Below, one piece after another: positions 16,800-53,034 of a stretch of DNA of 64,000 nt. Each line of letters begins with the position of its first letter. Position 1 is the stretch's first letter. The position numbers and the translations under genes are program-made. The DNA comes from Chondrosia reniformis. Its lineage: Eukaryota > Porifera > Demospongiae > Chondrillida > Chondrillidae. The notes beneath the pieces are model-generated. The model saw only the letters and a program-made list of their open reading frames with translations. It ran no database searches and was not told where the DNA came from. Where the stretch lies: assembly GCA_947172415.1 (NCBI GenBank), contig OX359193.1:6628501-6692500 (forward strand). Direction: 5' to 3'.

Positions 16800-17337
16800 C
16801 TTAATATCTAGAGCCTTGCTATAGACACTGCAGTTACGAAGGTTACCTCAAATATAAGTATCGAGAAATGTAGAAAACGGAAGATTAAGGTATACTTCCG
16901 GGAGTTTTATAAGTATATAACGACTCTTACATTACTTATATGATTCGTGTTTTCAATCCTGTTACGTATAGAGTTATATTATTAATAGTACGACGCTCGT
17001 AACTCCAAATGAGCGCTTATTGTGGATTCGCGACCTCGAGCGTCGTGCTGTGTACTGCGTCATATACATTACTTTCAGAAACATATATTCTGCCTGGGCG
17101 CATTAAGCCATCGCCACTTAAGGCTACCAGGCCGCACTTCCCAGACAGCCACATACAAGCACCGAGTTCGGAGGTGGTGCATCATATAAGTGATAATGAA
17201 TGTTTGGTGTGGTGTATGTGGGTGTGGTTGTATACACAAATAAGGTGAGTGAATATACATGTGAATAATAATAATTTAAACGTATACATATGTATAAAAA
17301 CAAGGGTGATATGCAGGTGAGGGAGCCATGGGGGTTA
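16800..17337. promoter_or_regulatory. Upstream region of gene B
   Basis: The 5' flank of gene B is less AT-rich than its surroundings near 17000-17160, with several CG dinucleotides (gagcgtcgtg, ctgcctgggcg). It probably contains the promoter. No specific element can be named and no coding exon is supported. Confidence 0.35.
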
Positions 17338-27116: not shown

Positions 27117-27164
27117 TTCTACGAGATTAATTAGTAGGTTGGTAATTTCCCCTTACTGCTAAAA
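27117..27164. promoter_or_regulatory. 48-bp bidirectional promoter between TTLL12 and RWDD2
   Basis: The two ATGs are only 48 bp apart on opposite strands. Both start codons sit in a YY1-like context: aaaatggctgcc on the plus side and AAATGGCG on the minus side. At least one transcript must start inside or beyond the neighbour's coding start, or both have extremely short leaders. No TATA box is evident. Confidence 0.6.
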
Positions 27165-28094
27165 ATGGCTGCCAAATCGAAGCAGTTACTCACACAGCAG
27201 TTGGAAGAAATAGACCTTATCCAATCCATGTATAGTAATGAGACGACAATAGAAGATGAGAAAGCGTTGTTGATGCTTCGTACGTATGTGAATAGTGTTG
27301 GTAACGAGCTACCTAAGGAAGTAGTCTTAAAAATTACGTGTGAGATTGATAACCCTACGTGTGCACGCACGGTGACAGTGAGTGACGAAAAAGATGGCGG
27401 CCAAATGACTACTACAAAGAGCAATAGTGTCTCGCACAAAGTAGAACTGATTCTCAGACTTCCTCCAAGCTATCCATCTAGTCATCCTGATGCTTCTGTT
27501 TGGAGCAATAACCTGACTCGTCACAGCCAGGATGCTCTTAATGAAGACCTGAAGGACTATATTCTTGAAGACATGGAATTAGGCGAGACCTTTCTCTTGC
27601 AGTGCATCCAATGGGTAACAGACAATGGAGGGAAATACTTTCCCATTTTAGAGAGACAGCCTTCAGCCTCAAGTGGTACTGAGGGGAAGGAGGACAAAGC
27701 TGAGAGCTTCTGTAGAATGTGGCTCTACATGCATCACATATACAGCAAGACAAAGCGGCGAAATATCCTTCAGCTTTCAAAGGACTATGATCTCACAGGA
27801 TTCTGTCTGCCAGGAAAACCCGGGGTGGTCTGTGTTGAAGGAACTATAAGGAATACAAAGGAATTCTATCAGCACCTGCGAAGTTGGAACTGGAAATCCA
27901 TCACTTGTAAAAAGCGTGAAATTGAGGATGTTTGTGAAAGTGATTTGAACTCATTTCGTAAGGTATCCAATTTTCAAGAGCTAACCTTTGATACTCACGG
28001 TCACAGATCAAATCACATGGATATGGGACAGTTTAGACAGTATTTAAGTGAACATAAACTTGACTATGCATTCAAACTTCTGTTTGATATTTAA
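27165..28094 (+). CDS. RWDD2: RWD domain protein of the RWDD2 family, intronless
   Basis: A single exon of 309 codons. Residues ~8-140 form an RWD domain (QQLEEIDLIQSMY at the start, LRLPPSYPSSHPDASVW in the middle). Residues ~175-305 form the RWDD2-type C-terminal domain (DUF1115): MWLYMHHIYSKTKRRNIL, DLTGFCLPGKPGVVCVEG and WNWKSITCKKRE are strongly family-like. Length agrees with RWDD2A/B (about 290-320 residues). The molecular role of RWDD2 is not well established; RWD domains mediate protein-protein contacts. It is head-to-head with TTLL12 and convergent with the SLC19 gene. An AATAAA lies at 28333-28338. A versus B orthology cannot be decided here. Confidence 0.9.
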   Translation: MAAKSKQLLTQQLEEIDLIQSMYSNETTIEDEKALLMLRTYVNSVGNELPKEVVLKITCEIDNPTCARTVTVSDEKDGGQMTTTKSNSVSHKVELILRLPPSYPSSHPDASVWSNNLTRHSQDALNEDLKDYILEDMELGETFLLQCIQWVTDNGGKYFPILERQPSASSGTEGKEDKAESFCRMWLYMHHIYSKTKRRNILQLSKDYDLTGFCLPGKPGVVCVEGTIRNTKEFYQHLRSWNWKSITCKKREIEDVCESDLNSFRKVSNFQELTFDTHGHRSNHMDMGQFRQYLSEHKLDYAFKLLFDI

Positions 28095-30510: not shown

Positions 30511-33500
30511 ATGCCGGCTAAGAAACAGGCGCAGTTGCAGGTACGGATTACTTGCTTAGCGATCCTGAATATCTAATCTATTTGCTAGGATTACTGAATA
30601 TACTTTTAATTTTAAAGGAAGAAGTTAGCACAGACGAAGATTGGAAAAATCTTGTAACTTCAAAAAAAGGCCTACTAGGTAAGAGAGTGTTATATTATTG
30701 GACTTTCAATTAGTCTATATTTAACCATGCAGGTATTTCTTATATTAAGTCAATGGCAGTAAGATTATTTATTAGTGTCTGCCTTGCAATACTAACATTT
30801 CGTTACTTACACACTCACAGTGTTAGATGTGTACTCGGAATGGTGTGGGCCTTGCAAGGCTGTGCATGGACTTTTCAGGAGACTTAAAAACGAATTAGGG
30901 GCGGAATTACTCACCTTTGTCGCAGTAAGCTATCTAGCATGTAATGGTTTAGCTCATTAGCAGGTTATTACAACTAAACACCCTATATATTATATCTGAG
31001 GCTTAACAATAATAATATTATTATTACTTGGATAACTTGGCTGATTGCTTACACATGTACATATATGGATATACTAGGACCCAGCTTGATGATAGGTTTA
31101 TATGGCATGTAGGCCAAGGCGGACACTCTAAGCTCCTTTGAAAAGTACAGGGGAAGGTCCCAACCGTGCTTCCTGTTCATGGCTGTAAGTGAATGTCTGC
31201 TTGTCAACAGCATGTATATTATGTGCATATATTATGTACTTACGTGTCCTTGAATGACTGGGAGGTGATCACTGGTTGACATTTTAGTAAGACTTTGGTC
31301 ACTTGGCTGGTCGGCGTAATATAATAATATATATAATAGTTATTATTCACTTCTTCTCCATAGTCCTTGCAGAGGTGTTAGTGCAATGAGCTTCTTGTTT
31401 CCTTATATGTATGTATACACTGTGTGTATCATGTATAATTTGCATATGCTTTGGCTTCTGTGTGTTCACTCCATCCCTGTTCTGTGTGTTCACTCCATCC
31501 CTGTTCTGTGTGTTCACTCCATCCCTGTTCTGTGTGTTCACTCCATCCCTGTTCTGTGTGTTCACTCCATCCCTGTTCTGTGTGTTCACTCCATCCCTGT
31601 TCTGTGTGTTCACTCCATCCCTGTTCTGTGTGTTCACTCCATCCCTGTTCTGTGTGTTCACTCCATCCCTGTTCTGTGTGTTCACTCCATCCCTGTTCTG
31701 TGTGTTCACTCCATCCCTGTTCTGTGTGTTCACTCCATCCCTGTTCTGTGTGTTCACTCCATCCCTGTTCTGTGTGTTCACTCCATCCCTGTTCTGTGTG
31801 TTCACTCCATCCCTGTTCTGTGTGTTCACTCCATCCCTGTTCTGTGTGTTCACTCCGTCCCTGTTCTGTGTGTTCACTCCGTCCCTGTTCTGTGTGTTCA
31901 CTCCGTCCCTGTTCTGTGTGTTCACTCCGTCCCTGTTCTGTGTGTTCACTCCGTCCCTGTTCTGTGTGTTCACTCCGTCCCTGTTCTGTGTGTTCACTCC
32001 GTCCCTGTTCTGTGTGTTCACTCCGTCCCTGTTCTGTGTGTTCACTCCGTCCCTGTTCTGTGTGTTCACTCCGTCCCTGTTCTGTGTGTTCACTCCGTCC
32101 CTGTTCTGTGTGTTCACTCCGTCCCTGTTCTGTGTGTTCACTCCGTCCCTGTTCTGTGTGTTCACTCCGTCCCTGTTCTGTGTGTTCACTCCGTCCCTGT
32201 TCTGTGTGTTCACTCCGTCCCTGTTCTGTGTGTTCACTCCGTCCCTGTTCTGTGTGTTCACTCCGTCCCTGTTCTGTGTGTTCACTCCGTCCCTGTTCTG
32301 TGTGTTCACTCCGTCCCTGTTCTGTGTGTTCACTCCGTCCCTGTTCTGTGTGTTCACTCCGTCCCTGTTCTGTGTGTTCACTCCGTCCCTGTTCTGTGTG
32401 TTCACTCCGTCCCTGTTCTGTGTGTTCACTCCGTCCCTGTTCTGTGTGTTCACTCCGTCCCTGTTCTGTGTGTTCACTCCGTCCCTGTTCTGTGTGTTCA
32501 CTCCGTCCCTGTTCTGTGTGTTCACTCCGTCCCTGTTCTGTGTGTTCACTCCGTCCCTGTTCTGTGTGTTCACTCCGTCCCTGTTCTGTGTGTTCACTCC
32601 GTCCCTGTTCTGTGTGTTCACTCCATCCCTGTTCTGTGTGTTCACTCCATCCCTGTTCTGTGTGTTCACTCCATCCCTGTTCTGTGTGTTCACTCCATCC
32701 CTGTTCTGTGTGTTCACTCCATCCCTGTTCTGTGTGTTCACTCCATCCCTGTTCTGTGTGTTCACTCCATCCCTGTTCTGTGTGCATGGCTAGACTGGCG
32801 GTATCCTGGTAGCTGTAGTGCGCGGTGCTAATGGACCTTTACTGGAGCATACCATTAAGGAACAGTTGGAGAGAGAAAAGAAAATCTTGGAAGGCAATGG
32901 GGAGAGAGTAGAAGTGAGAAGTACCTAGGCCTACAAATGGTTATATATAATATTGCTTATGTATGTATGTATGTTCATATGTACATATATGACATGCTAG
33001 ATTGAGGATGAACTTCCTGAGGAGGAATTGTTGGAAGATGAAGTAAAAGAGGAGAAAACTGAAGAAGAAGAAGTTCCAGGTACAATGTGTATGTGTAAAG
33101 GAATCGTTATCTATAAAAGAGGTTTAAATCCAATTGATGGTTGCTTGTAATTCACATACATACATGTTCTGTACTTACTATTGTAGAGTGTACATACATG
33201 TGATTATGCATCTTATGTGATAAAGTATGCCACACAATGTGCATCCATACCAGTGACACTATAGCTTGAGAGGAGTTTGATGGCATTCACCTTTCACCTC
33301 AAACTCCAAACACTGATCTAGTGTATGGCCCGTACGGTACATATATGTAAGTGTAGTATATATAAACACATATGATTGTGTATACACTTGTGCAGTGCCT
33401 ACAAGGAAGCAGTACACTATCGCCATCATTAAGCCTGACGCAGTGGAGGCCGGTGTTGTGGGCGACGTCCTGACCAAAGTGGAGGCAGCAGGACTAGAGG

Positions 33501-36172
33501 TGCTCTGTAAGGAAGAGAGAACAATGACTAGAGAAGAGGCCGCAGAGTTTTACAAGCAACATGAAGGATCTGTCAGTAGCTACATGTAGCACCTTGTACA
33601 TACGTATATGTGATATGCATAAAAGTGTTACTGTAAACTTGTTCCTTTGCTGTATTGTACACACTACACTAATTCACTTACTGTACAAATGTTATGCATT
33701 CTTGTTCACTGTTTAGGAACATTTTGAGGAACTTGTGGAATTCATGACAAGGTAAATGATATAATATGTATTTCAGAGGAGAAGAGAATTTGTGATGTAA
33801 GAGAGTAATGTAGGAACGCAAATTAGGCCAAATTAACTAACAATGATGTTACTATCTCATGTGAAGTGAGTGGATGTGATGGGATTTGCCGACTGATGTT
33901 GAGTGTCTCTCATCTGACTGATAGTGGTCCATGCATGACATTGGTGATCAGCAAGGGCGACACAGGAGAGGGAGCAGTGGAGAGCTTTAGAGACCTCCTT
34001 GGTCCCACTCTTGTTGAAGAAGCTAAAGAACAGAATCCCGAGAGGTTGGCAACATTGCATATTATAATCTCATTCTGTGTCACCACCTGGTTCCTATGTC
34101 TGGTGCACATGCAGCTTACGTAGTCAGTTTGGGACAGGCTCTTGGAAGAATGCTTTACATGGAAGTGACAGTGCTGAGAATGCTGCAAGGTTAAACTTGA
34201 TTTAACATTACCTATGTACAACTAGACACAGGCTGTATACACTTTACTTCATAATAATGGACATTCACTGTTGCAGCAAAGTGTTTCCGGGGCAGACTAG
34301 ATATTCTCTTTTCCTTTTCTCTTCTTGTAGAGAATTAGCCTTCTTCTTCCCAAAGTATTCTGTGCCGTGGGTTCCTGGGACAGAGCCTCCCATCCAGCGG
34401 ACCTTAGCAATCATCAGACCAACTGCTTTTGAAACACACAAAGGTAAGACTAGTGATGCTGCTCAACCTATCTCAAGATCATAACTCCATCTGTACTTTT
34501 AGACCAAACCAGTCATTCTATCTTATGGCTGTTTTCTTAAACTCTGTTCCTCCTAGATGAGATTGTTGAAAAGATCAAGGAGTCTGGTTTTGAGATTGCT
34601 ATGACCAAGGAGCTGGAGCTGACAAAGGAAGAAGCTGAAGAGTTTTACAAGACACACCAGGAAGAAGACTTTTTTGATGCACTCACAACACACATGTCAA
34701 GGTAGGCGCCTGCTCTCAAGACTGTAATGTGCCCCTTTTGTATATTGCACAATAGTACTAATTAGGAGCATTATCTTTAAATATACAGTAGACTCCATTA
34801 CATTATGCATTATGCACGCATCTTTGCACAAAGAAACCTACAGAAGAAAACACTGGTTGATTTCCCCCGGTCTTGAGGTTGTACAATTAGAGGAGCCACT
34901 GTGTGTACATCCTCTGTGCTCTGGATGTTGATATTGTGACAATCTGTGGTGTTGTCCCTCCCATCCTCTGCAGTGGTCCCTTTCTGGTGTTGGCCTTGGC
35001 TAGGGAGGATGCTGTGGATGAGTGGAGGAAGGCTCTGGGTCCTAAAGTAGTTGAGGAAGCCAAGGAGAAGGAGCCTGGCTCTCTTCGTGCTCAGTACTCA
35101 GTTGAAGATGCTCCCTTAAATCAGCTCCATGGATCAGAGACAGTGGAGGATGCTGACAGAGAACTCCAGTTCTTCTTCCCTCCGGAACAGACTGTTGCAG
35201 TCATCAAACCCAATGCTCTCAGTGAAAAGGGTGAGCTATCTTGTGTGTAATTGTAAGTGGTCTTTGGTTATGCGTTTGTACATGTTGTACTGTGCAGATC
35301 AAATCATCTCCAAGATTGAAGAGGCTGGCTTCACTGTGTCTATGAATAAGGAGACCCATTTGAGCAAGGAACAGGCAGAGCAACTCTACAGTGAACATAA
35401 AGACAAAGACTTCTTTGACGACCTCACCACCTTTATGAGCAGGTTGGTACCAATTAGATATACATGAACAATCTAGAACACCATATTTCAAGAAATTATG
35501 ATTAATCCATATGCCTAACCTATGTAATTGTATATACGTACCTACCCTATGTATTAGTATACCTACCCTATGTATTAGTATACCTACCCTATGTATTAGT
35601 ATATCTACCCTATGTACTCGATGTCTACCCTATGTACTTGTATATCTACCCTATTATGCATATGTGGTGCTGTACACTTGTGTCCCTATAGTGGTCCCTC
35701 CTTGTTCATGGTGCTGACAAAGCATGAGGCCATAACTGGATGGAGAGCACTGATGGGACCAGTAGATCCACTTGAGGCTAAAGAGCAAGATCCAAACTGG
35801 TAGGATATGGCTCATTTGTGTGTAATGCCATATTCTGTTTCATCAATCAATGACATTCTGCTAAAATGTGAGTTTGTGACGCAAAGCCTGATATTCTCAC
35901 TCAGTATTCGAGCACTCTTTGGAGTTGATAAAATCCAAAATGCCGTGCATGGATCCTCAGCCAAGGAAAAGGCAGACAACCTTATCAAAGAAATGTTTGG
36001 TACATAAAGCTGCACTCCGTTGTATAACAATATGTAGCATCATTTGTATGATATAAATCCTTGTACATAAACAGTGTATGTATGTGGTGTGCCCAATGAT
36101 CACTACAGATTCTTGTTGCTTATAGATAAACAGGAAGATGAGGAAGATGAGGAAGATGAGGAAGAGAAATGA
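30511..36172 (+). CDS. NME8: NME8/TXNDC3: thioredoxin plus three NDPK domains (17 exons)
   Basis: Exons: 30511-30540, 30618-30678, 30821-30924, 31113-31184, 32794-32913, 33001-33079, 33396-33571, 33717-33751, 33925-34044, 34115-34189, 34331-34443, 34557-34701, 34974-35230, 35298-35442, 35692-35799, 35905-35999, 36126-36172. The total is 1,782 nt, 593 residues; remembered human length is 588. Thioredoxin domain with WCGPC (Cys39, Cys42) and FEKYRGRSQPCFLFMA; an acidic linker; then three NDPK repeats, each beginning like YTIAIIKPDA, RTLAIIRPTA and TVAVIKPNA. The catalytic-histidine motif is HGSDS in repeat 1 (His281), HGSE in repeat 2 (His429) and HGSS in repeat 3 (His562). NME8 is tied to ciliary and flagellar axonemes, and mutations cause ciliary dyskinesia in humans. 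Intron 4 is filled by a minisatellite. The last exon adds an acidic tail (DEEDEEDEE); failing to splice it would end the protein at MFGT. Confidence 0.92.
31455..32784. repeat. 24-bp minisatellite, 55 copies, in NME8 intron 4
   Basis: The unit is tgtgttcactccatccctgt plus tctg, repeated about 55 times without length change. A single site (ccAtcc or ccGtcc) divides it into blocks of about 16 A units, 32 G units and 7 A units. Because 24 is divisible by three and the unit lacks stops in several frames, long repetitive open frames appear on both strands; these are not genes. The array ends 9 bp before the exon 5 acceptor. Confidence 0.97.
35521..35653. repeat. ~21-bp tandem repeat in NME8 intron 14
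   Basis: About six imperfect units of the form taccctatgtattagtatac, with later units varied (gtactcgatg, gtacttgtat). The array lies wholly in the intron 35443-35691 and ends about 40 bp before the acceptor. Confidence 0.9.
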
Positions 36173-36565: not shown

Positions 36566-39500
36566 ATGGAGACTGGAAACCTTGACGAGGAAGTCGCTAG
36601 CTTGCAAGCAATTTTTGGACTAAATTCAGTCATCGTGTCCAAGAATAATGTACTCACCTTAGTCACTGAAGAGCTGCGAATAACATTCAGCATTCCCAGT
36701 GAGTGTGCGCATATATTAGCATTCACTACAATACTTATACATACTCTGTTACTAGAAATATAGCTAGACTTCGATGATTCACTATAGATACTCTATGATA
36801 GTAGGTTTCGTCTCCTATATAGCCTTTTGATTTAAAAATAATGTAAATTTTGCTGTCCCATAATAGTTCACCTCTTGACCTATTTATTGGATCAACGATT
36901 AATTTAAACCAGTGAAATTGTTCACTTTCATTTGTCACATTTCACTCAATTAGGAGACAATAATGGATACATAGTACCTCCTTAAGAGCTACTACCTCTG
37001 TATAGATATACTCATTGAGAATCCCATCTTTCCTCTGTTTTAGGTGGTTATCCAAATAGCTTACCAGCCATTGCATTTCCTGAGGCTGTCCTTGAGAAGT
37101 CAGAGCTGAAGAGTGTATTGCTTGACGAAGCCAGGCTCCGCCTTGGGGGTCCCATGTTATATCAACTTGTGCAGTTGGCTCAGGATTGGGTTAGGGAACA
37201 CTTCTCTGCTCAAGCTGATAAGGGAACCACAACTCCACCACCAATTAAGGATTCTTACACTCCAAGCAAGCAGACCACTTCATCCCAGAAAATCTGCCAT
37301 TTTTTTCTGAGAGGAAAGTGTAAGTTTGGAGCTAAATGTCATAATTTGCACTCCAAATCAGCACCTAAGATGCAGTCTTCTGCGAATGGCTCCTTGCACA
37401 GTGAAATGATGGCCAGACAGCCAGCCCAGCAGACAAGCAGTGATACTGCAGAAGGAGATGAGGACTCGGTTGTTCTTTCAGAACAAGATGCCCAGGAATC
37501 TGCAAAGGTGACTGGAAGCGCAGGTGGAAAGAAGCCATCAATGAAGACAGCAACAAATGTCATTCACAGGATCCTCTGGGATGAGCAGTTACCATCTAAA
37601 CACTTTACAGTAGGCTACTTGGATCGGTTTCTTGGTATTCTTGAAAAGCCCTTTAAGGCCTTTAGCTGGGAGGACCTCTCAACAGTTGGCTATGATGTAC
37701 TTGCTATTCCTAAGCACCGGATCCAATACTTCAAATACAAGGGTGTCATTGTGTGGGACAAGAGGAGCCAATTTGATAATGTCTTTGGCTCTAGAGGGAC
37801 AGGTAAAACGATACTTGACATCATAGCAGAGTTAGGAGGTGAAGACAAGGTTGCTGTGGAAGGAACACATGAAGGAAATGAAGGTTCCTCTGATTCAGAT
37901 TTTGATCCAGAGGACAATGATGAGGTCAGAATACCTTCTAAAATGGGCATCTATAAAGCCAAGATAGACAAGAATCGACCCACCCATTTCATATACATAC
38001 CTGTATGTCAGTCAAAGGACATAGTTTCAAAGGTTAAGGAGCTGCAGGACCACATTACTGAGAGGGATCCAAGATTTGTGGATGGAAAACTGCCGTTGGA
38101 CAATCTTCACGTTAGTGTGGGCTACGTGCGTCTGGAGACTGAGAGTGATTGTCAGAAGGCAACTTCTGTGCTGAACAGCCTGCAGCCACATTTTGCTTCC
38201 ATTCTCCCTTCAAACATCGACTTGCATGTGAAAGGAGTAGATACATTTCGTGATCAGCTAATTTTTGCTAAAGTTGACAACTTTCCTGCTTTGATTAAGT
38301 TTGTGCATTTACTGTTACAGAGGTTTGAGGCTGCAGGGATCCCAACTCCTGGAAATCACAGTCCGTATGTCCCTCATGTGACCTTGTTACGACTAAGGCG
38401 AGGTATGATGCGTGAAATGAACCAAAGTGTTATTGAGAGCTGGCTGTATCAGCCATTCAAGGATGCCACCTTTGGTAATCAGGCCATTCAGGCACTCTGT
38501 ATAGGCGAGATGGCAGATTTTTATGTCAGATATAGGCACTCCATCACAAACAGTCCTCTAACCATTTCCCCACAAGTCCTGCCTCTTGTATGCACAACAG
38601 TTGACTGCTTGGCTAGTAATGGAATGTGCCCTGCCGATACAGCAGAGGAAGTCAAGTCAGCCATTTTAAGCTTCCAAAATGGAGATCTGTCAAAATCCTC
38701 AAAAGCTGTAGAATATGTGCACAAACTGATCATGAAGAGCTTCAGTGGCAAGAGAAAGAAGTTTCCTGTTGACAGCCTGCCCTTCACGCTGGATACTCCT
38801 ATAGTTGTTGTATTGCGTGGACTTCCTGGGAGTGGGAAGTCTTGGATAGTTAGCAATTGTGCAGAAATGAGGACACCTGATAAGATGGCCGTCTGCAGTG
38901 CTGACAAGTACTTTACAAACGTTGAAACAGAATCATACGAGTTCTCCTCCGACCTTCTTCCTCTTGCACACCAGCAGTGCCTTGCACAGTTTGTGCATGC
39001 AATTGCTGAACACAAACCACTTGTGGTTATAGATAACACCAATGTCCAGGAGTGGGAATATAGGATCTACAAGTACCTTAGCACTCTCTTTGGGCTCCGG
39101 TGCTATCTGCTGGAAGTGCCTTGCTTGTCCGAGGAGATGGTCCACTTGTATGCAGTGCGCAACCAACACAATGTCACATTTGAGGCTGAATTGAGGATGT
39201 TTAAGAATTGGGAGAAGGATGATAGTGCTATTTTAGTACCTCCTTCTGTAGCTAATCCATACCACAATAGTGTGCCATATAGTTTCTCACTTCGTGAGAT
39301 CTGCTGTCAGGACCAGCTGCTTTTCCAACTTGTCAAGGATAGAGGATATTCTGTTTCCATAGTATTTTCTGGATTATTCCTGTTGCCAGAGTATCGCTGG
39401 AATCTCTTATCGGCAGTTAAACCACTGCATCCTACGGTGTACACAGAGCACATCACACTTGTGTACAAGCCTACCCTTGCTCAGATAGGAGGCCTCATGC

Positions 39501-41941
39501 TAGGGCAGCAGCTGGACATTGTCCCTATCGGCTGGGCATCCGATCAGCGTGTTCAGGCAGTTGAGGTTGAGAAGCCCTCGGGGTTTACCCTCACTAACAG
39601 GCACACTCACATCACCATCAGCACAGAGAGAGGAGTGAGTCCTAAGTACTCAAATGACCTCTTGCTGTCTAGGCCCCAGCTTCAAAATGTTCCTGAATCT
39701 GCAATGCCACTGAAAGGAAGAGTGGGACTTCTACTGACATTGACACAACTTGGTGAAGTGGATGACCAACTGAAAGACAGTACTTTTCATATTTTTGATG
39801 AGAGCAAGCTACAAGCCATATTGCCCTACATTCAAGACAATCCAGCATCCAGTAATGTGCAAGGCACCTCTATCAATCCAGCACCTTGTTCTGCTCCAGA
39901 GATCCTCTTCCAACAAAGTGGTGCCAGCATCTTGCCTGGACTGCAGAAGATTACCAAACTATTTGTGTTTGACTTTGATGGGACCCTGTTTCATACTCCT
40001 GGTCCTGCTGATGGTAGGATGGAATACGAGAAGCTGACAGGAAAGAAGTGGCCTCATGAAAGAGGTTGGCTTATATGGCCAGAATCCCTTCTTCCACCAT
40101 TCAGGATTCATCCAGGTCCTGCTCTGCAATACTTTCACACTCATTGTGGCCAAGCAGATGCTCTCACAGTAGTCATAACTGGACGTATACAGAAACTGGA
40201 AGACACAGTTACCAAGGTATTGCACAATCACAACATCTTTCCAGATAAATGTTTCTTCAAGGACACACCCATCCAAAAGGAATCCACTTCTAGTTATAAA
40301 GTTCGGATTGTTCAGGAGCTATTGACACAGAACCCAAGCATTGATTGCATTAAAGTGTTTGATGACCTTGATGATGTATTATTAGCTTTTAGTGACCTTG
40401 CAGTAAGTCTAGCTAGGAATGGAGTTGCAGTTGACATTGTGGACTCCAAGATTTTGGAGCTTCCACGGGATGATGAAGCTAGGGGGGCAGTGGAAGCATT
40501 ACTCAAGCAGACTGGACTTCTACCCTCTCAGTCACATGGCCTAGCTGCTACGGCCGGCATCAATCTGATAGCATCCCTTTGGTCTCAGTGTGTACATTTT
40601 GCTGGACCTCCCACTCATCTAGTGCTCCAGTTTGGGTCACACCCGCTGGGAAGGAGCAGCGATGTTGACCTTTGCCTCCTTGCTCCGCCATTTGTGTCTC
40701 ACTTTGAATGCATAGATCTGCTTTCCCGACAAATGCAGGCTGCTGGTTCAGTCTATATTCATAAAGGTTACAGTTCTCGGTGTCCAAAACTCAAAGTTAT
40801 GCTTCAGTTTAAGGACCAGCCCAGTATCAATTATGATGTCATTTTCTACATTGTTTCCAATGAAGAATACTTTAAGAATGACTTGTTGAAGACTACACCT
40901 AATATTTCCACTTTAAAATCACTTTTAAAAGCTGGTGATAGCATTAGCAAGACAGCCCTGACTGGACCAATATTTCTTCATCATGTTTTGAACAAAATTG
41001 AAAAGCATATTGCAATTCAGGAGTTTGGAATGGCAGTGGAAATGGTTGTCTGGTACTTGAGGGTTTCCAGGCAAAAGGGAAATGGTTGTTCATGTATCCG
41101 AACCTTCCACATTGTTCAAATTTTAGCAGATCTAGTTCCCAGAATGTCTGAAGAGAGACTTCAAGTAAATCCTCCCTCAACAGTTTCAAAGACAGATAAT
41201 TTGTTTTCCTTGTTTATTGTGAGGACTTCAACTTTGGATAAGCACAAATGGTTGCAGCTATTTAATGACCGTGTGCCTGCCTCTTATATTGCTCCACTAC
41301 AAGAGTCTCTTGATAGAGCAAGAGCAGTTCTAGCAGCTTACGATGATGTTGTTTCACGTGAGTTCCTTTATAGCCTTTTGGAACCATCTCTCTATCCTCC
41401 ACAAGGATATGTTGGGGTGTGTATCAGCTATAACAGTCAAGAGAAGAAATTGGCTTGGGAATTGGACAGTTTTCTAGAGGGTAGAGTGTCAGCCTACATT
41501 TACAAGATAATCAGCAAAGGTGTGTCCGTCCTTCCAGGAGGAAATGGAAATCCTGGCTCTATTTGTTTTGCCGTCAAAGATGAAACATCTTCTACTGATG
41601 CTGTCCATGATGTTCTGAAATCATTGTGGACCGAATTGGCTCATTATAGAAAGCATCCTTCTGTGCACTTTCAGCTGATCATTGGCAGCTCTCCAACCAG
41701 TTTGGACTGCATTAGAGGCACTCTCCTGACAGGGATTAGTGACTACAATATTGTTGAACAAATCATGACTTTTGCAACAAGTGTCAAATTGCAAAGCAAA
41801 GAACCTGGAGTGCTACGTCTACCATCCTCTCTTACAAGCTATGAGCGTATGCTGGTACATGACTGTGCTGAAAGATTAGGACTGGACCACTTGAGTTCAG
41901 GGGATGGGAAGAATAGACATGTTATCTTGAAACACAAATAG
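36566..41941 (+). CDS. Multidomain RNA end-processing protein of 'Swiss Army Knife' type (LENG9-like N-terminal half)
   Basis: Two exons (36566-36698 and 37044-41941) give 1,676 residues. Domains: RWD (~1-105; EEVASLQAIFG, SGYPNSLPAIAFP across the splice); CCCH zinc finger C129-x7-C137-x5-C143-x3-H147; MJ1316/DUF504 domain (~212-295); 2H phosphoesterase with H400-V-S402 and H489-V-T491; P-loop kinase with GLPGSGKS at 637-644 and VVIDNTN (Asp708); a second region with a pair of H-x-T motifs (H847, H900), probably another 2H fold; HAD phosphatase with DFDGT (Asp1021), ITGR (Thr1090) and FDDLDD (from 1151), like the HAD family of 'Swiss Army Knife RNA repair' proteins; nucleotidyltransferase with GSHPLGRSSDVD (Asp1251, Asp1253) and Asp1309, followed by poly(A)-polymerase-like helices; C-terminal R3H (R1646-x3-H1650). 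These activities would trim, phosphorylate, dephosphorylate and extend RNA ends. No KxDG ligase motif was seen. CCCH-MJ1316-2H matches human LENG9 as I recall it. The start at 36566 is the ATG directly before the RWD; upstream in-frame ATGs add an unrelated hydrophobic stretch. Confidence 0.88.
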
Positions 41942-43553: not shown

Positions 43554-44128
43554 TATCGATTAGGAGGCAGCTTCAGAGTCTAAGCGCTACCAACCTCTAT
43601 GGGAACCGCAACCACCATAGAGATGTGTCCAGGTAGGCCTACTATATAAGGTTTTTCGCTTCTATTTATATGAAGTTTTGTCCAAAGAAAACGGTTGTGG
43701 TTGGGACTTTTTTAATATATTTCTCGTTATTTCCAGATCAGTGAATTGTTTCAAGCAAGTTTAAAGACATAGGCAGTATTAGTGATTCACCTGAAAACTG
43801 AGAAAAGCGAAAAAAATCCTGTAAGTGTCTTGATGGGCCGAGGAGAACGACTTTTCTGATCCCAATTATTTTCGAGAAATCGTCAATTTATTCCACTTTA
43901 ATTCCAGAGCAGTGAATCGTTCCAAGCAATTTTACACACATACGCAGTATTTCCAATACATCTCAAAACTGTGGCAAATGGAAAAAAGCATGTATGTGTC
44001 TTGGTGGAGGGAGGAGAGTGACTTTTCATGATAGAGAAAACTAGATATAGCGAGAGGTCCGATATTTATCGTCTGTACGATATTAATGTCAATGATCGAT
44101 ATTTCAATTAGGCCCGTTTTATTATGTG
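43554..44128. repeat. Satellite spacer, partial copy S0
   Basis: Begins within the spacer at cgattaggaggcagcttcag and continues to the gttttattatgtg edge; the first ~480 bp found in full copies are absent. It marks the left border of the satellite field. It differs slightly from full copies (gaggcagc instead of gagacagc). Confidence 0.9.
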
Positions 44129-47058
44129 TGTGAATGCTGACACAAAGATGTAGCTTCATATCTCTCCATTTGATAGAGTGACAGCCCTCAATGTACATTA
44201 AATTCTGTTATACCAAGTTAATGTATGGTGAGAGATAGGGCAAATTTTAAGTTTCATCAAAATTTCAAAAACCCATTGGACATGCTCTATAGATGTCTGT
44301 GAATGCTGACACAAAGATATAGCTTCATATCTCTCCATTTGATAGAGTGACAGCCCTCAGTGTACATTAAATTGTGGTATACAAAGTTAATGTATGGTGA
44401 GAGATAGGGCAAATTTTAAGTTTCATCAAAATTTCAAAAACCCATTGGACATGCTCTATAGATGTCTGTGAATGCTGACAGAAAGATTTAGCTGCATATC
44501 TCTCCATTTGATGGAGTGACAGCCCTCAGTGTACATTAAATTGTGGTATACAAAGTTAATGTATGGTGAGAGATAGGGCAAATTTTAAGTTTCATCAAAA
44601 TTTCAAAAACCCATTGGACATGCTAAATAGATGACTGTGAATGCTGACACAAAGAGTTAGCTTCATATCTCTCCATTTGATAGAGTGACAGCCCTCAGTG
44701 TACATTAAATTGTGTTATACAAAGTTAATGTATGGTGAGAGATAGGGCAAATTTTAAGTTCCAGAAAAATTTCACAAACCCATTGGACATGCTCTATAGG
44801 ATATCTGTGAATGCTGACAGAAAGATTTAGCTTCATATCTCTCCATTTGATAGAGTGACAGCCCTCAATGTACATTAAATTGTGGTATACAAAGTTAATG
44901 TATGGTGAGAGATAGGGCAAATTTTAAGTTTCATCAAAATTTCAAAAACCCATTGGACATGCTCTATAGATGTCTGTGAATGCTGACACAAAGATATAGC
45001 TTCATATCTCTCCATTTGATAGAGTGACAGCCCTCAGTGTACATTAAATTGTGGTATACAAAGTTAATGTATGGTGAGAGATAGGGCAAATTTTAAGTTT
45101 CATCAAAATTTCAAAAACTCATTGGCCATGTTCTATAGAAGTCTGTGAATGCTGACAGAAAGATTTAGCTGCATATCTCTCCATTTGATGGAGTGACAGC
45201 CCTCAGTGTACATTAAATTGTGGTATACAAAGTTAATGTATGGTGAGAGATAGGGCAAATTTTAAGTTTCATCAAAATTTCAAAAACCCATTGGACATGC
45301 TCTACAGATGTCTGTGAATGCTGACACAAAGATATAACTTCATATCTCTCCATTTGATAGAGTGAAAGTCCTCAATGTACATTAAATTGTGGTATACAAA
45401 GTTAATGTATGGTGAGAGATAGGGCAAATTTTAAGTTTCATCAAAATTTCAAAAACCCATTGGCCATGTTCTATAGATGTCTGTGAATGCTGACACAAAG
45501 ATTTAGCTTCATATCTCTCCATTTGATAGAGTGACAGCCCTCAGTGTACATTAAATTGTGTTATACAAAGTTAATGTATGGTGAGAGATAGGGCAAATTT
45601 TAAGTTCCAGAAAAATTTCACAAACCCATTGGACATGCTCTATAGATGTCTGTGAATGCTGACACAAAGATTTAGCTTCATATCTCGCCATTTGATAGAG
45701 TTACAGCCCTCAGTGTACATTAAATTGTGGTATACAAAGTTAATGTATGGTGAGAGATAGGGCAAATTTTAAGTTTCATCAAAATTTCAAAAACTCATTG
45801 GACATGCTAAATAGATGTCTGTGAATGCTGACACAAAGAGTTAGCTTCATATCTCTCCATTTGATAGAGTGACAGCCCTCAGTGTACATTAAATTGTGGT
45901 ATACAAAGTTAATGTATGGTGAGAGATAGGGCAAATTTTAAGTTTCATCAAAATTTCAAAAACCCATTGGACATGCTCTACAGATGTCTGTGAATACTGA
46001 CACAAAGATATAGCTTCATATCTCTCCATTTGATAGAGTGAAAGTCCTCAATGTACATTAAATTGTGGTATACAAAGTTAATGTATGGTGAGAGATAGGG
46101 CAAATTTTAAGTTTCATCAAAATTTCAAAAACCCATTGGACATGCTCTATAGATGTCTGTGAATGCTGACACAAAGATATAGCTTCATATCTCTCCATTT
46201 GATAGAGTGACAGCCCTCAGTGTACATTAAATTGTGGTATACAAAGTTAATGTATGGTGAGAGATAGGGCAAATTTTAAGTTTCATCAAAATTTCAAAAA
46301 CTCATTGGCCATGTTCTATAGAAGTCTGTGAATGCTGACAGAAAGATTTAGCTGCATATCTCTCCATTTGATGGAGTGACAGCCCTCAGTGTACATTAAA
46401 TTGTGGTATACAAAGTTAATGTATGGTGAGAGATAGGGCAAATTTTAAGTTTCATCAAAATTTCAAAAACCCATTGGACATGCTCTACAGATGTCTGTGA
46501 ATGCTGACACAAAGATATAACTTCATATCTCTCCATTTGATAGAGTGAAAGTCCTCAATGTACATTAAATTGTGGTATACAAAGTTAATGTATGGTGAGA
46601 GATAGGGCAAATTTTAAGTTTCATCAAAATTTCAAAAACCCATTGGACATGCTCTATAGATGTCTGTGAATGCTGACACAAAGATATAGCTTCATATCTC
46701 TCCATTTGATAGAGTGACAGCCCTCAGTGTACATTAAATTGTGGTATACAAAGTTAATGTATGGTGAGAGATAGGGCAAATTTTAAGTTTCATCAAAATT
46801 TCAAAAACTCATTGGCCATGTTCTATAGATGTCTGTGAATGCTGACACAAAGATTTAGCTTCATATCTCTCCATTTGATAGAGTGACAGCCCTCAGTGTA
46901 CATTAAATTGTGTTATACAAAGTTAATGTATGGTGAGAGATAGGGCAAATTTTAAGTTCCAGAAAAATTTCACAAACCCATTGGACATGCTCTATAGATG
47001 TCTGTGAATGCTGACACAAAGATTTAGCTTCATATCTCGCCATTTGATAGAGTTACAG
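44129..47058. repeat. Satellite array M0, ~17.3 monomers of ~169 bp
   Basis: Head-to-tail monomers, each starting tgtgaatgctgacacaaaga and containing catatctctccatttgatag, agccctcagtgtacattaaa, ggtgagagatagggcaaatt and caaaaacccattggacatgc. Successive starts at 44295, 44464 and 44633 give a period of 169 bp. Variants include ccagaaaaatttcacaaacc in place of the usual tcatcaaaatttcaaaaacc segment. The last monomer is truncated at agagttacag before the spacer. Confidence 0.97.
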
Positions 47059-48110
47059 AACTACAGTTCATGTACTGTTTTGTTAGAGAAAATTGCGTAA
47101 TACTATATATGGCCGACCGTTAGAAGGTATATGATAAAGACAAAATTCCATACTATATCTGAAAATCTAGAATACTTTCCAATTTTTATACATAGGGATA
47201 TGCACTGTGTAGTACTTGATTGTTATTGAAGTACTATCTATCCATATATTTTATATGGATCTCGTTAAAGTGAAATTTCGTCAATCGACAGCCAACGAAA
47301 CTCCAAAGAAAAAAAGTTGGACCATACCGAACGCTACCATCCACGACGCTCATAGGCCGGGATCGGTGGTAACGCTCTGCCGAGTTGAGCTTTGGGTGTC
47401 ACTTGCGTGAGAAGAACCAGTTCTTCTCGATATGGCCGACTCATATGAATCCTAAGATATCAGATGCCAATCCCACATTACGTGGAACCCCCCCGAAATC
47501 CGGATTATTGGTGAGCACGTCTCTATGGCACCAACCGATTAGGAGACAGCTTCAGAGTCTAAGCGCTACCAACCTCTATGGGAACCGCAACCACCATAGA
47601 GATGTGTCCAGGTAGGCCTACTATATAAGGTTTTTCGCTTCTATTTATATGAAGTTTTGTCCAAAGAAAACGGTTGTGGTTGGGACCTTTTTTAATATAT
47701 TTCTCGTTATTTCCAGATCAGTGAGTTGTTTCAAGCAAATTTAAAGACATAGGCAGTATTAGTGATTCACCTGAAAACTGAGAAAAGCGAAAAAAATCCT
47801 GTAAGTGTCTTGATGGGCCGAGGAGAACGACTTTTCTGATCCCAATTATTTTCGAGAAATCGTCAATTTATTCCACTTTAATTCCAGAGCAGTGAATCGT
47901 TCCAAGCAATTTTACACACATACGCAGTATTTCCAATACATCTCAAAACTGTGGCAAATGAAAAAAAAAGCCTGTATGTGTCTTGGTGGAGAGAGGAGAG
48001 TGACTTTTCATGATACAGAAAACTAGATATAGCGAGAGGTCCGATATTTATCGTCTGTACGATATTAATTTCAATGATCGATATTTCAATTAGGCCCGTT
48101 TTATTATGTG
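47059..48110. repeat. Satellite spacer S1 (~1,052 bp)
   Basis: Non-monomer segment running from aactacagttcatgtactgt to ggcccgttttattatgtg. It contains a perfect 9-bp-arm hairpin gagaagaac-ca-gttcttctc at 47409-47428, a second hairpin ctctatgg...ccatagag, and two diverged ~171-bp internal repeats (ttccagatcagtga..., ttccagagcagtga...). Short open frames (64 and 76 codons) recur in each copy but have no family resemblance. Confidence 0.95.
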
Positions 48111-49349
48111 TGTGAATGCTGACACAAAGAGTTAGCTTCATATCTCTCCATTTGATAGAGTGACAGCCCTCAGTGTACATTAAATTGTGGTATACAAAGT
48201 TAATGTATGGTGAGAGATAGGGTAAATTTTAAGTTTCATCAAAATTTCAAAAACCCATTGGACATGCTCTACAGATGTCTGTGAATACTGACACAAAGAT
48301 ATAGCTTCATATCTCTCCATTTGATAGAGTGAAAGTCCTCAATGTACATTAAATTGTGGTATACAAAGTTAATGTATGGTGAGAGATAGGGCAAATTTTA
48401 AGTTTCATCAAAATTTCAAAAACCCATTGGACATGCTCTATAGATGTCTGTGAATGCTGACACAAAGATATAGCTTCATATCTCTCCATTTGATAGAGTG
48501 ACAGCCCTCAGTGTACATTAAATTGTGGTATACAAAGTTAATGTATGGTGAGAGATAGGGCAAATTTTAAGTTTCATCAAAATTTCAAAAACTCATTGGC
48601 CATGTTCTATAGAAGTCTGTGAATGCTGACAGAAAGATTTAGCTGCATATCTCTCCATTTGATGGAGTGACAGCCCTCAGTGTACATTAAATTGTGGTAT
48701 ACAAAGTTAATGTATGGTGAGAGATAGGGCAAATTTTAAGTTTCATCAAAATTTCAAAAACCCATTGGACATGCTCTACAGATGTCTGTGAATGCTGACA
48801 CAAAGATATAACTTCATATCTCTCCATTTGATAGAGTGAAAGTCCTCAATGTACATTAAATTGTGGTATACAAAGTTAATGTATGGTGAGAGATAGGGCA
48901 AATTTTAAGTTTCATCAAAATTTCAAAAACCCATTGGACATGCTCTATAGATGTCTGTGAATGCTGACACAAAGATATAGCTTCATATCTCTCCATTTGA
49001 TAGAGTGACAGCCCTCAGTGTACATTAAATTGTGGTATACAAAGTTAATGTATGGTGAGAGATAGGGCAAATTTTAAGTTTCATCAAAATTTCAAAAACT
49101 CATTGGCCATGTTCTATAGATGTCTGTGAATGCTGACACAAAGATTTAGCTTCATATCTCTCCATTTGATAGAGTGACAGCCCTCAGTGTACATTAAATT
49201 GTGTTATACAAAGTTAATGTATGGTGAGAGATAGGGCAAATTTTAAGTTCCAGAAAAATTTCACAAACCCATTGGACATGCTCTATAGATGTCTGTGAAT
49301 GCTGACACAAAGATTTAGCTTCATATCTCGCCATTTGATAGAGTTACAG
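48111..49349. repeat. Satellite array M1, ~7.3 monomers
   Basis: Same ~169-bp monomer family, 1,239 bp. The end monomer is truncated at the same base as in M0. The block S1+M1 is almost repeated as the start of S2+M2 with an offset of about 2,291 bp. Confidence 0.95.
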
Positions 49350-50402
49350 AACTACAGTTCATGTACTGTTTTGTTAGAGAAAATTGCGTAATACTATATA
49401 TGGCCGACCGTTAGAAGGTATATGATAAAGACAAAATTCCATACTATATCTGAAAATCTAGAATACTTTCCAATTTTTTATACATAGGGATATGCACTGT
49501 GTAGTACTTGATTGTTATTGAAGTACTATCTATCCATATATTTTATATGGATCTCGTTAAAGTGAAATTTCGTCAATCGACAGCCAACGAAACTCCAAAG
49601 AAAAAAAGTTGGACCATACCGAACGCTACCATCCACGACGCTCATAGGCCGGGATCGGTGGTAACGCTCTGCCGAGTTGAGCTTTGGGTGTCACTTGCGT
49701 GAGAAGAACCAGTTCTTCTCGATATGGCCGACTCATATGAATCCTAAGATATCAGATGCCAATCCCACATTACGTGGAACCCCCCCGAAATCCGGATTAT
49801 TGGTGAGCACGTCTCTATGGCACCAACCGATTAGGAGACAGCTTCAGAGTCTAAGCGCTACCAACCTCTATGGGAACCGCAACCACCATAGAGATGTGTC
49901 CAGGTAGGCCTACTATATAAGGTTTTTCGCTTCTATTTATATGAAGTTTTGTCCAAAGAAAACGGTTGTGGTTGGGACCTTTTTTAATATATTTCTCGTT
50001 ATTTCCAGATCAGTGAGTTGTTTCAAGCAAATTTAAAGACATAGGCAGTATTAGTGATTCACCTGAAAACTGAGAAAAGCGAAAAAAATCCTGTAAGTGT
50101 CTTGATGGGCCGAGGAGAACGACTTTTCTGATCCCAATTATTTTCGAGAAATCGTCAATTTATTCCACTTTAATTCCAGAGCAGTGAATCGTTCCAAGCA
50201 ATTTTACACACATACGCAGTATTTCCAATACATCTCAAAACTGTGGCAAATGAAAAAAAAAGCCTGTATGTGTCTTGGTGGAGAGAGGAGAGTGACTTTT
50301 CATGATACAGAAAACTAGATATAGCGAGAGGTCCGATATTTATCGTCTGTACGATATTAATTTCAATGATCGATATTTCAATTAGGCCCGTTTTATTATG
50401 TG
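49350..50402. repeat. Satellite spacer S2
   Basis: Near-identical to S1, including both hairpins and the internal ~171-bp duplication; one extra T occurs in the caattttttatacat run. Confidence 0.95.
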
Positions 50403-51980
50403 TGTGAATGCTGACACAAAGATGTAGCTTCATATCTCTCCATTTGATAGAGTGACAGCCCTCAATGTACATTAAATTCTGTTATACCAAGTTAATGTAT
50501 GGTGAGAGATAGGGCAAATTTTAAGTTTCATCAAAATTTCAAAAACCCATTGGACATGCTCTATAGATGTCTGTGAATGCTGACACAAAGATTTAGCTTC
50601 ATATCTCTCCATTTGATGGAGTGACAGCCCTCAGTGTACATTAAATTGTGGTATACAAAGTTAATGTATGGTGAGAGATAGGGCAAATTTTAAGTTTCAT
50701 CAAAATTTCAAAAACTCATTGGACATGCTAAATAGATGTCTGTGAATGCTGACACAAAGAGTTAGCTTCATATCTCTCCATTTGATAGAGTGACAGCCCT
50801 CAGTGTACATTAAATTGTGGTATACAAAGTTAATGTATGGTGAGAGATAAGGCAAATTTTAAGTTTCATCAAAATTTCAAAAACCCATTGGACATGCTCT
50901 ACAGATGTCTGTGAATACTGACACAAAGATATAGCTTCATATCTCTCCATTTGATAGAGTGAAAGTCCTCAATGTACATTAAATTGTGGTATACAAAGTT
51001 AATGTATGGTGAGAGATAGGGCAAATTTTAAGTTTCATCAAAATTTCAAAAACCCATTGGACATGCTCTATAGATGTCTGTGAATGCTGACACAAAGATA
51101 TAGCTTCATATCTCTCCATTTGATAGAGTGACAGCCCTCAGTGTACATTAAATTGTGGTATACAAAGTTAATGTATGGTGAGAGATAGGGCAAATTTTAA
51201 GTTTCATCAAAATTTCAAAAACTCATTGGCCATGTTCTATAGAAGTCTGTGAATGCTGACAGAAAGATTTAGCTGCATATCTCTCCATTTGATGGAGTGA
51301 CAGCCCTCAGTGTACATTAAATTGTGGTATACAAAGTTAATGTATGGTGAGAGATAGGGCAAATTTTAAGTTTCATCAAAATTTCAAAAACCCATTGGAC
51401 ATGCTCTATAGATGTCTGTGAATGCTGACACAAAGATATAGCTTCATATCTCTCCATTTGATAGAGTGACAGCCCTCAGTGTACATTAAATTGTGGTATA
51501 CAAAGTTAATGTATGGTGAGAGATAGGGCAAATTTTAAGTTTCATCAAAATTTCAAAAACTCATTGGCCATGTTCTATAGATGTCTGTGAATGCTGACAC
51601 AAAGATTTAGCTTCATATCTCTCCATTTGATAGAGTGACAGCCCTCAGTGTACATTAAATTGTGTTATACAAAGTTAATGTATGGTGAGAGATAGGGCAA
51701 ATTTTAAGTTCCAGAAAAATTTCACAAACCCATTGGACATGCTCTATAGGATATCTGTGAATGCTGACAGAAAGATTTAGCTTCATATCTCTCCATTTGA
51801 TAGAGTGACAGCCCTCAATGTACATTAAATTGTGGTATACAAAGTTAATGTATGGTGAGAGATAGGGCAAATTTTAAGTTTCATCAAAATTTCAAAAACC
51901 CATTGGACATGCTCTATAGATGTCTGTGAATGCTGACACAAAGATTTAGCTTCATATCTCGCCATTTGATAGAGTTACAG
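50403..51980. repeat. Satellite array M2, ~9.3 monomers
   Basis: Same monomer family, 1,578 bp, two monomers longer than M1. It includes a variant carrying ctctataggatatctgtgaa at the monomer junction. Confidence 0.95.
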
Positions 51981-53034
51981 AACTACAGTTCATGTACTGT
52001 TTTGTTAGAGAAAATTGCGTAATACTATATATGGCCGACCGTTAGAAGGTATATGATAAAGACAAAATTCCATACTATATCTGAAAATCTAGAATACTTT
52101 CCAATTTTTTATACATAGGGATATGCACTGTGTAGTACTTGATTGTTATTGAAGTACTATCTATCCATATATTTTATATGGATCTCGTTAAAGTGAAATT
52201 TCGTCAATCGACAGCCAACGAAACTCCAAAGAAAAAAAGTTGGACCATACCGAACGCTACCATCCACGACGCTCATAGGCCGGGATCGGTGGTAACGCTC
52301 TGCCGAGTTGAGCTTTGGGTGTCACTTGCGTGAGAAGAACCAGTTCTTCTCGATATGGCCGACTCATATGAATCCTAAGATATCAGATGCCAATCCCACA
52401 TTACGTGGAACCCCCCCCGAAATCCGGATTATTGGTGAGCACGTCTCTATGGCACCAACCGATTAGGAGACAGCTTCAGAGTCTAAGCGCTACCAACCTC
52501 TATGGGAACCGCAACCACCATAGAGATGTGTCCAGGTAGGCCTACTATATAAGGTTTTTCGCTTCTATTTATATGAAGTTTTGTCCAAAGAAAACGGTTG
52601 TGGTTGGGACCTTTTTTAATATATTTCTCGTTATTTCCAGATCAGTGAGTTGTTTCAAGCAAATTTAAAGACATAGGCAGTATTAGTGATTCACCTGAAA
52701 ACTGAGAAAAGCGAAAAAAATCCTGTAAGTGTCTTGATGGGCCGAGGAGAACGACTTTTCTGATCCCAATTATTTTCGAGAAATCGTCAATTTATTCCAC
52801 TTTAATTCCAGAGCAGTGAATCGTTCCAAGCAATTTTACACACATACGCAGTATTTCCAATACATCTCAAAACTGTGGCAAATGAAAAAAAAAGCCTGTA
52901 TGTGTCTTGGTGGAGAGAGGAGAGTGACTTTTCATGATACAGAAAACTAGATATAGCGAGAGGTCCGATATTTATCGTCTGTACGATATTAATGTCAATG
53001 ATCGATATTTAAATTAGGCCCGTTTTATTATGTG
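51981..53034. repeat. Satellite spacer S3
   Basis: As S1/S2, with an extra C in the C-run before cgaaatccgg and the variant gatatttaaattaggcc, the latter shared with S4 only. Confidence 0.95.

Follow-up and report, generated by a model that had tools for sequence, protein, structure and literature searches.

The genome of the sponge Chondrosia reniformis encodes, within a stretch of 64,000 nucleotides (assembly GCA_947172415.1, contig OX359193.1, positions 6,628,501 to 6,692,500; hereafter the window, to which coordinates refer), a 1,676-amino-acid protein whose sequence leads us to predict, at a probability of roughly 0.7, a ligase-free RNA end-healing enzyme that carries its catalytic and RNA-end-binding domains in a single chain. 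Its activities would probably be those of a 5' kinase, a cyclic phosphodiesterase and a phosphatase, together with nucleotide addition. From the first to the last residue, the modules are RWD, CCCH zinc finger, MJ1316, a 2H phosphoesterase of the AKAP7 type, P-loop kinase, a second 2H, HAD_SAK_1, a Pol-beta-like nucleotidyltransferase and R3H. A preliminary description, made from the sequence alone, had claimed at least eight RNA-binding or RNA-end-processing modules in one polypeptide; this holds, with eight of the nine modules fitting those words, since RWD is a protein-binding fold. The motifs it had named (Walker A, the 2H pairs, DFDGT, and those of the nucleotidyltransferase, CCCH and R3H modules) are all in place.

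The gene, with all its modules on the plus strand, consists of two exons, such that the single open frame that had been described from position 36566 is in fact interrupted by a GT-AG intron of 345 bases (36699-37043), while all modules except part of the RWD do lie together in exon 2. Exon 1 (36566..36698) holds the start codon and the first half of the RWD, and exon 2 (37044..41941) the remainder of the split codon, followed by 1,631 complete codons that no stop interrupts and by the stop codon. The splice falls at residue 45, inside the RWD match (residues 7-93), and the joining of the two exons is thereby supported. It is extremely improbable that more than one gene, or a degenerating chimera, was misread as a single protein: the model is drawn from genomic sequence, but one exon with its 1,631 stop-free codons contains everything apart from half of the RWD, and every active-site motif that was searched for is there.

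The gene appears to be single-copy. Paralogues were judged through family searches of the sponge genome (117 Mb in 15 contigs), in which MJ1316 and HAD_SAK_1 each matched once, in both cases in this gene. The animal origin assumed in the preliminary description is supported by the mitochondrial contig of the assembly (C15, 17,451 bases), whose COX1 needs TGA to be read as tryptophan and which also carries an open frame that reads as ATP9 (named by eye). The combination of genetic code table 4 and atp9 in mtDNA of animal type points to a demosponge.

The kinase-2H-HAD core and its viral relatives

The catalytic core was identified in Pfam scans of the whole protein and of single regions scanned alone, and motif patterns, which were written after the sequence had been seen, were compared with 20,000 shuffles of the protein. 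The P-loop polynucleotide kinase (38804..39211, residues 632-767) matches PF13671 (AAA_33) with E 2.1e-10 in the whole protein, and displays the motifs GLPGSGKS (637-644), DNTN (708-711) and RNQH (750-753); the Walker A pattern occurred in none of the shuffles. It also matches the phage families phrog_2071 ('ATPase', E 1.7e-19) and phrog_505 (polynucleotide kinase, E 2.1e-9). The second 2H phosphoesterase, of the cyclic phosphodiesterase (CPDase) type (39326..39760, about residues 806-950), carries the pairs H847-x-T849 and H900-x-T902 and matches PF08302 (tRNA_lig_CPD) with E 1e-5 when scanned alone, reaching 25.6 bits alone and 22.2 bits in the whole protein around a cut-off of 23, with just its second half matched; scanned alone, it found no match in the PDB. 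The HAD_SAK_1 phosphatase (39953..40435, about residues 1015-1175) matches PF10307 (E 5.2e-8 in the whole protein) over residues 1079-1171, with 33.3 bits in the whole protein and 37.8 alone, above the cut-off of 25.6. Its expected residues are D1021, D1023, T1090, K1130 and D1151-D1152, and the DxDGT pattern appeared in 31 of the 20,000 shuffles; the HAD profile had no PDB match.

Relatives of this core are found in viruses. When exon 2 was searched by tblastn in 50,697 phage records, 28 of them matched; among the 15 listed, 11 match the kinase and 4, from huge phages, the HAD (E 2e-10 to 9e-7). Three of these phage HADs, when translated, are stand-alone proteins (HAD_SAK_1 E 1.4e-15 to 8.5e-10), and D1021, D1023, T1090, K1130 and D1152 are invariant between them and the sponge HAD. 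The matching kinase gene of phage PaulScherrer, whose annotation is polynucleotide kinase, is preceded by genes for an RNA ligase and a phosphoesterase.

Two scans of IMG/VR, one with an alignment of the sponge HAD and the three phage HADs (225 related stretches, 80 kept) and one with 2H-HAD sequences as query (173 relatives, 80 kept), provided 160 loci with 2,205 open reading frames (ORFs) of at least 60 amino acids after overlap removal. Domains were marked by our own models, that for the kinase being built from three sequences including the sponge kinase. We found 29 kinase-2H ORFs (21 distinct), 9 2H-HAD ORFs (4 distinct), 103 with a HAD only, 50 with a 2H only and 7 with a kinase only. 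Four of the 2H-HAD fusions (three distinct, each about 300 amino acids) were among the stretches of the first scan; in Pfam, tRNA_lig_CPD scored over its cut-off in two of the three distinct ORFs and under it in one, and HAD_SAK_1 fell just under the cut-off in all three. Viral kinase-2H and 2H-HAD fusions together thus present the sponge order kinase-2H-HAD divided between two genes.

A model of 19 viral kinase-2H proteins, less than 90% alike and with the sponge excluded, scores 33.7 bits against the sponge protein (best of 1000 shuffles, 3.8 bits), with collinear matches first to residues 631-724 (6.5e-9) and then to 816-917 (2.1e-5). To judge from these matches, the collinear kinase and 2H that mark polynucleotide kinase (PNK)/CPDase healing enzymes are present in the sponge protein. 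When the sponge sequence was aligned with 18 of the 19 viral proteins (the shortest was omitted), GxxGxGKS, DNTN, RNxH and both HxT pairs were invariant in all rows, as was an SN pair that follows the second HxT. The top PDB matches of the kinase-2H profile, to UvrA proteins, cover a short stretch at the P-loop; matches that extend over the entire kinase domain are to T4 polynucleotide kinase (1ly1, 6e-5; also 2e-4) and, at lower strength, to L-seryl-tRNA(Sec) kinase (3e-3). The HADs of the viral 2H-HAD proteins match the sponge HAD in blastp with E down to 2e-24. By sequence comparison, therefore, the kinase-2H unit and the HAD are homologous to viral proteins. Single-sequence patterns, made from exon 2 or from three of its parts, retrieved no close relatives from viral contigs. 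In prokaryote genome contigs the HAD alignment, used as a single short pattern, found none, and the kinase-2H alignment found 17 loci, all within query residues 2-167, which is the kinase part alone.

The surroundings of the viral kinase-2H genes support a role in RNA repair. A ligase of the RNA_lig_T4_1 family was present in 16 of 18 virus records, and HAD_SAK_1 in 15 at E<=0.001 (14 over the cut-off); for the ten records that entered through a kinase-2H gene, these numbers were 10/10 and 8/10, respectively. A T4-Rnl1-type ligase gene lies on the same strand less than 3 kb downstream of 16 of the 20 distinct kinase-2H genes with more than 3 kb of downstream sequence (20 of the 21 have that much), and of 0/32 2H-only, 0/4 2H-HAD and 0/71 HAD genes. 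Anywhere in the locus, a ligase accompanies 20/21 kinase-2H, 0/37 2H-only, 0/4 2H-HAD and 2/77 HAD genes. Since the ligase model was built from the ligases of the same records, these counts describe these loci rather than an independent sample; a search of the neighbourhoods with the RNA ligase of PaulScherrer retrieved no ligase, whereas the model built from the ligases of these viruses did. Near one kinase-2H gene lies an ATP-dependent DNA ligase that belongs to a phage family, which fits a phage.

One of the four distinct 2H-HAD fusions (L146:4974-7097, IMG/VR 3300017917_002458) encodes a 707-amino-acid protein with a 2H, then a CCA-adding tRNA nucleotidyltransferase (PolyA_pol, 4.8e-24) and HAD_SAK_1 (24.1 bits, cut-off 25.6), the 2H being marked by our own model and not listed by Pfam. 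An RlaP gene starts 1.7 kb past its end. Its domains suggest a viral enzyme that would repair 3' ends with a single chain. For jumbo phages, PMC7824862 assigns 2H, polynucleotide kinase, PNK-HAD or 'Swiss-army-knife' HAD, RlaP and CCA enzymes to tRNA repair with ATP-grasp ligases, and describes the Swiss-army-knife HAD as mostly a stand-alone protein. Fused kinase-2H, 2H-HAD and 2H-CCA-HAD genes of viruses are not named in those portions of the literature on these domains that were consulted, none of which came from a dedicated literature search.

HAD_SAK-type domains also occur in viral proteins of 570-802 amino acids (IMG/VR loci L037, L052, L057, L060, L062, L080, L083, L086, L087 and L114); in the L037 and L062 proteins a Pfam scan found no other domain. 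In seven further loci (L124, L141, L161, L166, L170, L171 and L173) viral ORFs of 1,415-1,796 amino acids end in a C-terminal 2H, with a HAD gene just downstream.

RNA-binding modules and the nucleotidyltransferase region

In front of the core, the RWD (36584..37189, PF05773 E 1.3e-6) is followed by a CCCH zinc finger (37289..37354, C129-C137-C143-H147), which was assigned by its pattern, found in 71 of the 20,000 shuffles, and by a Pfam match below the cut-off (PF00642, residues 127-148, 19.6 bits as compared to 20.5). The MJ1316 domain (37541..37762, residues 211-284) matches PF04457 with E 2.6e-25; a passage of PMC6514570 describes this domain as recognising RNA 2'-3' cyclic ends and as fused to RNA repair domains across eukaryotes. 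The first 2H (37979..38515, residues 357-535) belongs to the AKAP7 type by both its profile (PF10469, AKAP7_NLS, E 1e-26) and its motifs (H400-x-S402 and H489-x-T491), and matches A-kinase anchor protein 18 in the PDB (E 1.7e-13). At the other end of the protein, the R3H (41798..41932, residues 1630-1674, R1646-x3-H1650) matches PF01424 with E 5.6e-10 and SMUBP-2 in the PDB with E 9e-5. The R3H pattern occurred in 466 and a 2H pair in 758 of the 20,000 shuffles; such motifs are weak by themselves, and both assignments therefore lean on the profiles.

Matches to the AKAP7-type 2H are also repeated about 3.3 kb apart elsewhere in the sponge genome (G000:C9:548059-556500), apparently as tandem gene copies. 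Within the window, a separate gene with RWD and Prp3_C (27147-28091) precedes the repair gene by about 9 kb.

MJ1316 has similar partners in bacteria. When exon 2 was compared with 72,556 plasmid records, the one match was to the MJ1316 domain of a gene annotated as RNA 2',3'-cyclic phosphodiesterase on a Calothrix brevissima plasmid (AP018209.1, L228:2376-5351). Its 991-amino-acid product joins MJ1316, Exo_endo_phos, 2_5_RNA_ligase2 (2H), PAP_NTPase and PAP_central, each scoring above its cut-off, and thus combines MJ1316 with a phosphatase-type domain, a 2H and a nucleotidyltransferase. Relatives of this protein are encoded in three plasmid records (two of Embleya and one of Nonomuraea; 94-96% coverage, 28-31% identity).

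The Pol-beta-like nucleotidyltransferase core of the sponge protein (40583..40870) was recognised by its motif, G1242-S1243 ... D1251-x-D1253 ... D1309, of which the third aspartate was assigned by eye. The full pattern occurred in 6 and the short one in 36 of the 20,000 shuffles, and the region had no match in Pfam or the PDB up to E=10. The stretch that follows (40871..41710, residues 1321-1600), also without a Pfam or PDB match, is possibly the C-terminal part of the nucleotidyltransferase.

Motif spacing prompted a poly(A)-polymerase reading of residues 1195-1600, which neither profiles nor an alignment with the bovine enzyme supported. Of three pieces of poly(A)-polymerase profile, the best was reached by 7/500 shuffles and placed outside 1195-1600, and the others by 63/500 and 146/500; pieces of the bovine poly(A) polymerase aligned to 1195-1600 with a score that 64/500 shuffles reached, other regions of the protein being equally good. 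The poly(A)-polymerase-type region of the Calothrix protein aligns over 1203-1543 (reached by 1/500 and, separately, 7/1000 shuffles) and gave nothing against five other regions of the sponge protein; three relatives of this region, and a profile of all four, gave nothing against the sponge nucleotidyltransferase region. Taken together, these sequence comparisons yield a weak and inconsistent hint of poly(A)-polymerase likeness. Similarity to RlaP was not above chance, and that to a class II CCA-adding enzyme barely so (1.0 bit, reached by 1 of the 500 shuffles made, 216 of which were reported).

A nucleotidyltransferase in one chain with an AKAP7-type 2H might alternatively belong to 2-5A-type signalling, in which the former would make 2',5'-linked oligoadenylate or a similar signal, the latter would degrade it and the other domains would tune the response. 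AKAP7 and NS2A cleave 2-5A, and sponges have 2-5A synthetases; the first 2H, besides its AKAP7 type, weakly matches Corona_NS2A at a sub-threshold E of 0.11. Yet such an enzyme would leave the kinase, the HAD_SAK and the second 2H unexplained, viral kinase-2H genes accompany RNA ligases, and no Pfam model matches the nucleotidyltransferase region up to E=10. We therefore regard this alternative as very unlikely.

Elsewhere in the window, a nucleoside diphosphate kinase domain is encoded on the same strand just upstream of the repair gene (34903-35247). A 24-base repeat with about 55 nearly identical copies (31456-32784) accounts for several long open frames on the two strands, which are most likely not genes, and arrays of a 169-base repeat, with several interruptions, extend from 44124 to 63999 at the end of the window. 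On the minus strand, open frames at 4529-6669 and 14906-16847 share long similar stretches, with LTDASAKDASRTDEVIQAAF in both, apparently through local duplication.

A proposed route for RNA end healing

We propose that broken RNA would be held by the MJ1316, CCCH and R3H domains, and that MJ1316 would recognise the 2',3'-cyclic phosphate that metal-independent RNases leave behind. The cyclic phosphate would be opened by the second 2H, perhaps together with the AKAP7-type 2H, as their homology suggests; the HAD would remove the terminal phosphate that remains, and the kinase would phosphorylate the 5'-OH. Lost 3' nucleotides might then be restored by the nucleotidyltransferase, which is the least certain step, and the RWD may recruit a partner. 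Because the sponge protein has no recognisable ligase, the ends would have to be sealed by a separate 5'-3' RNA ligase, or the RNA would meet another fate.

An end-healing machine had already been proposed in the preliminary description. The proposal gains support from the viral relatives, which by their sequences hold the same fused domains and whose kinase-2H genes lie near ligase genes, and loses some from the lack of a ligase in the sponge protein, where the Pfam scans found no ligase profile and no K-x-D-G motif occurs. Several further points weigh against it. The 18 virus records used for the ligase and HAD counts were picked from our own matches, and the two records without a ligase match are the 2H-HAD (L119) and 2H-CCA-HAD (L146) fusions. 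The 2H part of the viral 2H-HAD proteins matches residues 806-917 of the sponge protein modestly, at a level reached by 2/1000 shuffles. The conserved aspartate of the kinase is unsettled, D657 being invariant in an alignment that is doubtful there and D665 being expected from the motif, and the nucleotidyltransferase call rests on a motif. Finally, the sponge genome contains RtcB, which needs no such healing, and the animal 5'-3' ligase RLIG1 was not found in an exon-wise search in which the controls were silent too. The 2'-phosphotransferase family PTS_2-RNA is present in the genome.

RtcB in the genome, and a 5'-3' ligase unseen in that search, would also suit an end-clearing regulator, which removes 2',3'-cyclic phosphates and so blocks joining by RtcB or marks fragments for decay or tailing, instead of repairing them. 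In mammals, CNP and ANGEL2 clear cyclic ends and thereby reduce the ligation carried out by RTCB (PMC13247085). A 5' kinase, on the other hand, is unnecessary for clearing cyclic ends, although it too would block RtcB, and the viral kinase-2H relatives adjoin ligase genes; such a regulator seems unlikely to us.

In the account of animal RNA joining given by PMC13247085, RTCB has the leading role, and CNP, ANGEL2, CLP1 and RLIG1 deal with the other end chemistries as separate proteins. An animal protein that combined every step of healing in one chain, if the end-healing prediction is true, would allow a 5'-3' repair route to be tested directly, and the viral fusions provide an independent and testable functional link. 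More speculatively, animals may carry, or have ancestrally carried, a kinase-2H-HAD healing cassette of the sort by which tailed phages reverse tRNA cleavage, which in the sponge was fused to an MJ1316 sensor and RNA-binding domains against RNase attack or stress, and of which LENG9 would be a remnant after loss of the repair half; we hold this wider scenario to be doubtful.

Comparison with known systems

The kind of protein described here is already known: 'Swiss Army Knife' RNA repair proteins were reportedly described by Burroughs and Aravind in 2016, and, like them, the sponge protein has in a single chain several modules for the processing of RNA ends along with a HAD_SAK_1 domain that scores above the cut-off of its family. 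To this our analysis adds a gene model with two exons, an apparently single copy, the residues of the active sites, and the finding that the core is homologous to fused genes of phages; among these, the genes for kinase-2H lie near RNA ligase genes.

In phage RNA-repair proteins the kinase, second 2H and HAD are related to those of the sponge and stand in the same order; however, they are divided among at least two genes, and 16/18 records contain a ligase gene, whereas the sponge protein is without a ligase. RWD, CCCH, MJ1316 and R3H were absent from all 13 viral proteins scanned with Pfam. The Calothrix and actinomycete protein likewise joins a 2H, a phosphatase-type domain and a nucleotidyltransferase in one chain, and its MJ1316 is 38% identical to that of the sponge over about 80 residues, but it uses Exo_endo_phos as the phosphatase-type domain and lacks the kinase and HAD_SAK. 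T4 Pnkp and the bacterial and mammalian PNKP share with the sponge protein a 5' kinase and a HAD phosphatase in one chain, but the sponge has a 2H between the two, a HAD of the SAK family and six further modules.

Fungal Trl1 and the lancelet PNK/CPDase (CNP family) resemble the sponge protein in the order of a kinase and then a 2H cyclic phosphodiesterase, as well as through the sponge tRNA_lig_CPD match, and we know of no HAD_SAK in either. The lancelet enzyme is described, in the relevant portion of PMC5434554, with PNK and CPDase domains only. Unlike the sponge protein, Trl1 has a ligase of its own.

LENG9 has CCCH, MJ1316 and an AKAP7-type 2H in this order, and is not known to have the kinase, second 2H, HAD, nucleotidyltransferase or R3H that the sponge protein adds. 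The LENG9-like front half named in the preliminary description fits in so far as the same three domains follow each other in the same order and no further MJ1316 match was found in the sponge genome, the likeness being one of domain content. These observations are consistent with vertebrate LENG9 being a reduced descendant of such a protein. Sections of published reports record that Leng9 mRNA rises in activated mouse macrophages (PMC2478707), that in Daphnia a LENG9-annotated gene ranks within the top ten of those induced by Cu and by Zn (PMC11331620), and that a LENG9-annotated transcript is listed with -1.4 in prawn intestine challenged with virus or poly(I:C) (PMC6161888). If the descent is true, the sponge protein offers a concrete origin for the little-understood vertebrate LENG9.

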